This document shows positions 43,110 through 61,440 of a DNA stretch of 64,000 bases, piece by piece (within the stretch, counting starts at the first letter, position 1; each line of letters opens with the position of its first letter). Both the position numbers and the translations under genes were made by a program. The stretch is taken from contig CANHHA010000009.1 of the NCBI GenBank assembly GCA_947460825.1, positions 1 to 64,000 of the forward strand, read 5' to 3'. A model generated the notes under the pieces. The model saw only the letters and a program-made list of their open reading frames with translations, had not been told where the DNA came from and made no database searches. Source of the stretch: Flavobacteriales bacterium (GTDB lineage: Bacteria; Bacteroidota; Bacteroidia; Flavobacteriales_D; Crocinitomicaceae).

Positions 43110-43124
43110 GATATTTTTTTTTTA

Positions 43125-59728: not shown

Positions 59729-61440
59729 ATGAGCGAATTTGTTGTTTCAGCAAGGAAGTATCGTCCGCAAACCTTTGAAACGGTTGTAGGCCAGGGGTCT
59801 ATTACAGGAACCTTGCGCAACGCCATTTTAACCGGTCATTTAGCTCAAGCTTTTTTGTTTTGTGGATCACGAGGTGTTGGTAAAACTACCACGGCGAGAA
59901 TCTTAGCCAAAACCATTAATTGTTTCAACCGAACCCCACAACTTGAAGCCTGTGATGTCTGTGACTCCTGTGTATCCTTTAATTCAGGGAATTCGCTAAA
60001 CATTTACGAACTGGATGCGGCCTCGAATAATTCCGTGGATGACATCCGTGGATTAATTGATCAAGTACGCATTGCACCACAACTTGGAAACTATAAGGTT
60101 TACATCATCGATGAGGTCCACATGCTTACGGCAAATGCCTTTAATGCCTTTCTTAAAACATTAGAAGAACCTCCTGCACACGCCATTTTCATCTTAGCAA
60201 CCACAGAGAAACATAAAATTATCCCAACGATACTATCAAGGTGTCAAATTTTTGATTTTAGTCGGATTGGCGTTAAAGACATTGCGATGCATCTTACCCA
60301 TATTGCGGAAAAAGAAGCAGTAAGTGCCGAGCCTGAAGCCCTGCATCTGATTGCAACCAAAGCCGACGGAGCGCTTCGAGATGCCTTATCAATCTTTGAT
60401 CAATTAGTTACGTTCAGCGGTGGAAACATTACCTACCAAACGGTATTAACCAACCTGCATGTATTGGATTACGACTATTATTTTAAGATCGTAGATTATT
60501 TAAAGAAAGAAGACATTGCGGGCTCGATATTAACCTTAAATGACATTATTGAGAAAGGCTTCGACGGACACCAATTTATCATTGGTTTGGCTGAACATTT
60601 CCGAAACCTACTCATGGCGCAAGATGTACGAACTATTCCCTTGCTCGAGTTAACAGAACAAATTAAAGATCGATTTAAAGAGCAATCCGGCGCTTGGGAA
60701 AAAAATCAACTCACAAGAGCTATGTATTGCTTAAGTAAGGCAGATGTCGCCTACAAAAGTTCGAAAAATCAACGACTTCTAGTCGAAGTTACCCTGATGG
60801 AGTTAGGTTCTTTACAACAAGAGGCTGAAAAAAAAAATCCCTAACGGATCCCATTAGTATTCTCCCTTTTGCAGCGCAGAGCGTACGTCCTCAACAACCC
60901 CAAGAGAAGTCAGTAAAACCCTCACTGGCCTTACCGAAAATTGAGCTAGAGAACAAACCTAATACCCTCGACAAACCGACCGGTAGCCTCTCTGAAAGCA
61001 CCTTGAGTATAAAGGCGCAATTAGCCGCCCACCGTATGAAAAAAGTAGTGGCTGAAGAAGACCTTCCCCGAAATCAATTCAGTACAGATGCCTTAATTTC
61101 CTGTACTCGAAAATATGCGCACATCCTGAAAGACCTTGGAAAGGAAACATTTTATCATGCTTTAATCAAAAGAGATCCAAAACTCACCGATGAAACCATT
61201 ACCCTGATTGTTGATAATGAGGTTCAAGTTGCCTACATCACCCCCCTTCTTACGGAATTTGTAGAATTTTTAAAAACCGAATTGAAGAATGGATTTCTTG
61301 ATGTGAAGCTTTTGGTGACAGAGCAAATAGAATCGGAACAAAAACCCGTTACCGGTAAAGACAAGTATCAAGCACTTGCGCGCAAAAATCCAAACATACA
61401 TACCTTAAAAAATCGCTTTAACTTAGACATAGAATTTTGA
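59729..61440 (+). CDS. dnaX: DNA polymerase III gamma/tau, split by a 10-A slippery run
   Basis: In frame from the ATG at 59729 the product is 371 residues (gamma-like) and stops at 60842-60844, just after the A run. After a -1 shift in the run, the frame stays open to 61440, giving 570 residues (tau-like). Residues 1-371 hold the AAA+ clamp-loader domain: Walker A GSRGVGKTT, a four-Cys zinc site (C, CDVCDSC), Walker B IIDEVHML, and sensor TILSRC. The C-terminal frame ends in YQALARKNPNIHTLKNRFNLDIEF, matching Bacteroidota DnaX tails. The first product ends where E. coli domain III ends. A homopolymer error in the assembly is the main alternative to programmed slippage. Confidence 0.9.
60828..60837 (+). 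promoter_or_regulatory. A10 slippery run in dnaX
   Basis: Ten consecutive A (60828-60837) follow GCTG. The zero frame reads GAA-AAA-AAA-AAT-CCC-TAA; the -1 frame continues into the tau-specific region. AGAGG at about 60820-60824 could be a weak stimulating Shine-Dalgarno-like site. Only a weak 4 bp CTAA/TTAG stem was seen downstream. Confidence 0.65.

Follow-up and report, generated by a model that had tools for sequence, protein, structure and literature searches.

Introduction

The gamma and tau proteins encoded by dnaX determine how the clamp loader holds the polymerases at the replication fork, and the purpose of gamma is debated (PMC5009743, section 21). The E. coli dnaX gene is described as using a -1 ribosomal frameshift with the slippery heptamer A AAA AAG, a Shine-Dalgarno-like element and a hairpin (Atkins et al., 2016, PMC5009743; PMC3711429). 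For Thermus thermophilus dnaX, transcriptional slippage at a run of nine A residues has been reported (PMC5009743, section 21; Baranov et al., 2005, PMC1088944). The survey of Antonov et al. (2013, PMC3711429) describes two-frame dnaX genes in 17 genomes from 12 genera, all with a frame change in the -1 direction; a poly-A stretch is present in 12 of the 17, nine of which have ten A's, and transcriptional realignment was proposed. The same paper gives the rule that transcriptional realignment is indicated where the frame changes occur in both directions (PMC3711429).

Here, we describe a dnaX gene from a Flavobacteriales bacterium of the family Crocinitomicaceae, which is located near the end of the analysed stretch of 64,000 nucleotides (hereafter, the window), and compare it with its counterparts in the same genus, family, order and phylum. 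An initial annotation had proposed that ten consecutive A's link the two frames in which this gene is encoded, an arrangement expected for producing gamma and tau by slippage or -1 frameshifting.

Results

The window dnaX gene is divided between two frames at a run of ten A's

The two-frame arrangement is borne out, and the gene contains the following features:

59729 to 60844, forward strand: first frame of dnaX, encoding gamma (371 aa, domains I-III), from ATG 59729 to the TAA stop, which is included; Pfam and NF011531 matches
60826 to 60828, forward strand: TGA closing the -1 frame just 5' of the run; from the sequence
60828 to 60837, forward strand: ten A's, the proposed slip site; from the sequence
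60838 to 61440, forward strand: tau C-terminal region in the -1 frame, ending with TGA 61438-61440; NF011531 match and excess of third-codon-position differences
60842 to 60844, forward strand: gamma stop TAA in the zero frame; from the sequence
60855 to 60857, forward strand: TAG ending the third (+1) frame, four codons beyond the gamma stop; from the sequence
61072 to 61323, forward strand: predicted folded domain of the tau region (region residues 79-162), KH-like by its matches; AlphaFold and VIA-align

The run consists of exactly ten A's at codons 367-370. The junction reads GAA AAA AAA AAT CCC TAA, with the gamma stop five codons after the first codon of the run, and the -1 frame is open from the run to its TGA, both as had been annotated; it extends 198 codons beyond the gamma stop. 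Gamma and the -1 frame overlap by only 13 nt (60829-60841), nine of which are A's of the run, and the frame switch must therefore occur within this interval. Pfam domains for the ATPase (DNA_pol3_delta2, residues 23-179), the lid (DNAX_ATPase_lid, 185-232) and domain III (DNA_pol3_gamma3, 245-364) all fall in the first frame, which agrees with the earlier claims that this frame holds every clamp-loader domain and that the boundary lies at the end of domain III. The NCBIfam DnaX model NF011531, which has 614 positions, matches both pieces, the first frame at model positions 1-369 (668.5 bits) and the -1 region at positions 426-613 of 614 (E 1.6e-17, 63.6 bits), each piece on its own scoring below the whole-protein cut-off of 685 bits.

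The window junction has two in-frame heptamers, A AAA AAA and A AAA AAT, but not A AAA AAG, the one known from E. coli. The 2.66 Mb genome contains runs of ten A's at 13 places in all (14 matches, two of them overlapping). One of the 12 places outside dnaX is at window position 43114, and among the 11 others, which were looked at, five runs sit in stop-free frames of 98 to 210 codons.

The tau C-terminal region bears the mark of selection

Compared with a close relative (L004), the -1 region shows 29, 13 and 105 differences at the first, second and third codon positions, respectively, evidence of translation and of selection. These differences are distributed as in a translated frame. Gene decay was considered as an explanation and rejected. 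The region has no Pfam match at E values up to 1. Its AlphaFold model has a mean pLDDT of 84.7, with values above 95 in most blocks of residues 81-160. When this model was compared with known folds using VIA-align, it matched 4tps_B (an entry of SirA with DnaA domain I) with a Z score of 9.0 over 77 aligned residues and an rmsd of 2.4, and DciA (8a3v_C) with a Z score of 7.9, the tool cautioning that a Z score below 8 may reflect a common arrangement only. Domain V of tau may have a KH-like fold of this kind. No tau structure was among the matches listed in these fold comparisons, and a search of solved structures with a profile of the tau C-terminal region gave four weak matches (best E 0.026), none visibly related to DnaX.

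The run and the -1 tau region are conserved within the genus

The search of the genus covered 86 genomes, eight of which gave no dnaX match at E 1e-60; the 78 matching loci were all read. In 73 of them a complete -1 tau region follows the run, which has ten A's in 68 cases and eleven in five. The five complete A11 cases look like substitutions, since the frame is kept. Three further A10 loci are ended by contig ends, and two deviate: in L190 (genome G088) the -1 frame stops 14 codons after an A10 run, and L181 (G091) has 14 A's and a single frame, making it the sole locus of the 78 with a run length that changes the frame.

These counts bear on two explanations that place the change in the DNA itself. 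If the homopolymer had been misread or misassembled, the true run would contain 11 A's and dnaX would be one frame. Homopolymers are prone to such errors, and longer runs with a single frame are found in L181 and in L034 (genome G248, genus g27 of the family, A11). However, the frame relation is complete in 73 of 78 genomes of the genus and is also seen in class members assembled as a single contig (G402, G515 and G551, for example), and judging from the sequences, the loci with tau in the +1 or zero frame that share the A10 run and its codon phase (see below) must differ from the window gene outside the run. Eleven A's in truth, the alternative raised by the initial annotation, is thus highly improbable. 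The deviations in L181, L034 and L190 could be either real switches or assembly faults. The other explanation is phase variation, in which DNA polymerase slippage would alter the run between cells and lineages would switch between a gamma-only and a tau-producing state. Long A runs mutate easily, which would favour such a switch, but an essential replication gene is an unlikely place for one. Moreover, only L181 among the 78 loci has a frame-changing run length and the five complete A11 loci keep the frame, and we give phase variation a very slim chance.

Conservation of the run can be followed codon by codon. Codons 367-369 read GAA AAA AAA in all 78 loci, and codon 370 starts with AA in all 78 even though its amino acid varies (Lys in 50, Asn in 28). 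Each of 15 other conserved Lys columns contains some AAG, in 2 to 31 genomes, and the unbroken run is therefore not mere codon bias; likewise, both codons are present in each of ten conserved Glu columns. Taken by itself, this conservation speaks for selection on the run, and would fit a slippery heptamer and an RNA polymerase slip site alike. That GAA AAA AAA is invariant is no argument on its own for slippage during transcription, because the same bases form the heptamer A AAA AAA. What exceeds this heptamer is only the kept AA at the start of codon 370, two bases that the heptamer does not require; with them, the run stays at ten.

The Glu codon 365 (60821-60823), which precedes the run by two codons, is GAG in 75 of the 78 loci, although GAA is the commoner Glu codon in the gene. 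This GAG might be a weak Shine-Dalgarno-like site for pairing with ribosomal RNA.

The run accompanies three different tau frames across the phylum

Searches at the level of the order, family and phylum matched dnaX in 142 of 150, 193 of 200 and 292 of 296 genomes, respectively, and the best 80 of 593 confirmed stretches were kept from a scan of genome contigs. We read 30 listed loci per search together with further stretches, and dropped loci with no stop in the stretch, with a first frame shorter than 345 codons, or with a gene identical to another. The resulting set has 320 distinct loci, which fall into 124 clusters when grouped at 80% identity; nearly all are from the class of the window genome. 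The tau region lies in the -1 frame in 189 loci, in the zero frame in 94 and in the +1 frame in 26, with eight unclear and three with an in-frame stop; as the sampling preferred short open frames, these counts are not frequencies.

The run of at least nine A's, which the initial annotation had suggested looking for in related genomes, is present at the junction in 173 of 189 loci with the -1 layout, 25 of 26 with the +1 layout and 82 of 94 with the zero layout, corresponding to 107 of the 124 clusters. It has exactly ten A's in 236 of the 280 run-bearing loci. In most loci the run has codon phase 2, in some 1 or 3, and identical A10 runs with differing tau frames are seen among relatives. Cultured relatives with the layout of the window gene include Chryseobacterium lathyri KCTC 22544 (L099, A10) and Flavicella marina 2A-7 (L091, A11). 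Relatives with an uninterrupted dnaX and no run, which had been named as evidence against the two-frame reading, do exist (12 of the 94 uninterrupted loci), but the other 82 keep nine A's or more. Conversely, 16 of the 189 loci with the -1 layout have no run of nine A's, and a two-frame layout can thus outlive the run. On a tree of 116 rows, built by a quick method, the tau frame must have changed 27 times or more among run-bearing rows, versus seven changes in the presence of the run. The starred branches alone force nine changes for -1, nine for zero and five for +1 when all rows are considered; this tree is weak, with 42 of 113 inner branches open, and was built before the last loci joined the set.

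Early stop codons in the non-tau frames

Whichever frame tau occupies, the two remaining frames reach a stop codon within 13-19 nt (medians) of the run. For loci with the -1 layout, the median distance from the run to the stop of the third frame is 14 nt (49 clusters, with one outlier at 184), and this frame closes earlier than elsewhere in the same genes (one-sided Wilcoxon, about 1e-7 versus the tau region and 2e-8 versus the gamma region; all closure p-values take clusters as independent). The early closure of the third frame in the +1 layout (nine clusters) has a p-value of 0.01 versus the tau region and is not significant versus the gamma region (p 0.13). In zero-frame genes with the run, the median distance within which the two other frames have both closed is 13 nt (47 clusters, with a single one at 260), whereas ten zero-frame genes without the run have per-gene median closures of 34-197 nt over codons 365-389 (p 3e-6), a comparison that is not like for like, as a regional median is used for the run-less genes and base composition is unmatched. 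Four of these ten genes have a site at codons 365-389 that closes both frames within 10 nt.

No hairpin was found in the 70 nt after the run (z 0.25 for the window; mean z 0.05 over 16 representatives, taken from the genus list with a few loci of other genera), a result that covers simple hairpins within this stretch. Only the anticodon UUU was found for tRNA-Lys, in a single tRNA-Lys (anticodons were given to 31 of 35 matches, the four others being 82-88 nt long, and the first pass scored 150 of 221 candidates). With this single tRNA, ribosomal slippage on A AAA AAA is possible.

These results can be weighed against a programmed -1 ribosomal frameshift at A AAA AAA or A AAA AAT, in which tau would be made from messages that keep ten A's. 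This alternative draws on the in-frame A AAA AAA of all 78 loci of the genus, the AAG at codon 370 that creates an in-frame A AAA AAG in 44 of them, the -1 direction of the tau region in the 73 complete loci, the single tRNA-Lys UUU and possibly the GAG kept upstream of the run in 75. However, the same run also accompanies the zero layout and the +1 layout, and the latter cannot yield tau by a -1 shift. In addition, the third frame closes early although ribosomes shifting by -1 never enter it, AA is kept at codon 370 despite the varying amino acid there and without being needed by A AAA AAA, and no hairpin was found. That all three layouts carry the run, that the non-tau frames stop early and that no hairpin was found favours transcriptional slippage instead. 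Given one tRNA-Lys and the slippery heptamers, -1 ribosomal frameshifting is an improbable alternative that nevertheless deserves to be taken seriously. The initial annotation had left slippage and -1 frameshifting as equals; both are possible mechanisms, but the comparison tilts, short of proof, towards slippage by RNA polymerase.

A side branch of the family has lost the run

In L255-L269 and L304, loci of the same family (genera g23, g29, g30, g62 and g66), the A10 run has been lost while gamma and a -1 tau frame are kept; L270 (genus g67) retains A10. A start codon overlaps the gamma stop in L304 (TAATG), L263 (ATGA) and L268 (GTGA), and in the 13 other run-less loci of the branch the -1 frame reads ATC from four bases 5' of the gamma stop. 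The frames overlap by as few as 10 nt, with no slippery site, but A AAA AAG is retained in the overlap in L258, L261 and L262. This branch appears to make a free tau C-terminal protein by re-initiation.

For the window gene, the corresponding explanation would be that the tau region is a separate protein, started anew after the gamma stop. The three side-branch genes with an ATG or GTG overlapping the stop lend it some plausibility, but the window -1 frame has no ATG, GTG or TTG in 60829-61002, its first start codon being a TTG at 61003, beyond conserved residues, and re-initiation would leave the invariant run without a role. We consider it very unlikely here.

Several loci outside this branch also depart from the common layouts. 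Three Bacteroidales-like genes without the A run have an in-frame TAG as gamma stop (L083:2788, L098:5099 and L109:5102), followed by ATT GCA/T AGG, and the zero frame continues for 190-255 codons to a tau-like end, which may point either to stop readthrough or to re-initiation. In L074, from Bacteroidales, dnaX lacks the A run and has its tau region in the +1 frame, over 249 codons. Lastly, genome G165 has two dnaX matches, on contigs C49 and C27 (L233), with open-frame lengths of 589 and 376, which is possibly contamination.

Discussion

We propose that one dnaX gene makes both gamma and tau, the reading of the initial annotation that is now backed by related genomes and is by far the best, and that RNA polymerase slips at the run of ten A's, a mechanism that we consider probable on the comparison of sequences. 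We infer that RNA polymerase is the slipping agent and that both proteins are made and used. A faithful transcript would give gamma, ending at 60842. Slippage of RNA polymerase on the ten A's would add A's to some messages and omit them from others; messages that gain one A, or whose length equals this modulo three, would bring the tau region into frame and give tau, and messages in the third phase would soon stop at 60855 and give a protein close to gamma. As slippage would fill all three frames, the frame of the tau region relative to gamma would matter little, which would explain why the run is kept while the tau frame drifts among relatives.

The retention of the run while the following frame changes suggests that slippage allows a shorter and a longer protein to be made from one gene. 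A bolder reading, to which we give a little less than even credence, is that A10 is a frame-blind splitter kept across much of Bacteroidota, behind which the frame of an essential protein drifts almost freely (-1, +1, zero), and that the run-less branch of the family has turned to two overlapping cistrons, which would give gamma and, by re-initiation, a free tau C-terminal protein. A group that retains the two-product arrangement through changes of frame, and perhaps of mechanism, would argue that both products are needed. The zero, -1, +1 and run-less genes offer natural comparisons for measuring transcriptional slippage in cultured Bacteroidota. In addition, a gene caller that is blind to the frame change would presumably record such genes as a short DnaX and miss tau.

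How does the locus compare with the known systems? With E. coli dnaX as described by Atkins et al. (2016, PMC5009743), the window gene shares the proposed production of gamma and tau from one gene, the -1 direction and the single tRNA-Lys. In E. coli, however, the shift makes gamma, whereas here it would make tau, and the window has a run of ten A's and no AAG in its heptamers, and no hairpin was found there. In Thermus, as in the window, a long run of at least nine A's follows the gamma part and stops lie near the run in the non-tau frames (60842 and 60855 in the window; this is general in relatives). The Thermus tau is in the unslipped frame and the organism is described as having two tRNA-Lys (PMC5009743, section 21; PMC1088944); in contrast, the window tau lies in the -1 frame and needs a slip, and one tRNA-Lys was found. 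The relatives with tau in the zero frame are nearer to the Thermus layout than the window gene itself.

The closest match is with the two-frame genes in the survey of Antonov et al. (2013, PMC3711429). As in that set, the gamma frame of the window gene ends just past the poly-A stretch, tau is in the -1 frame at the DNA level, and the frame transition is conserved in relatives, being complete here in 73 of 78 loci of the genus. The same run with all three tau frames was not found in the titles or abstracts listed by a literature search, which, the search being limited, is weak evidence. The genes of that survey are described as -1 only, whereas here the run extends throughout a genus and is combined with all three tau frames (-1, +1 and zero). 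We conclude that the window gene belongs to the two-frame dnaX genes with ten A's, a kind described in 2013, and that a specialist would find two things new: the run is conserved in all three layouts, and a side branch has lost it.
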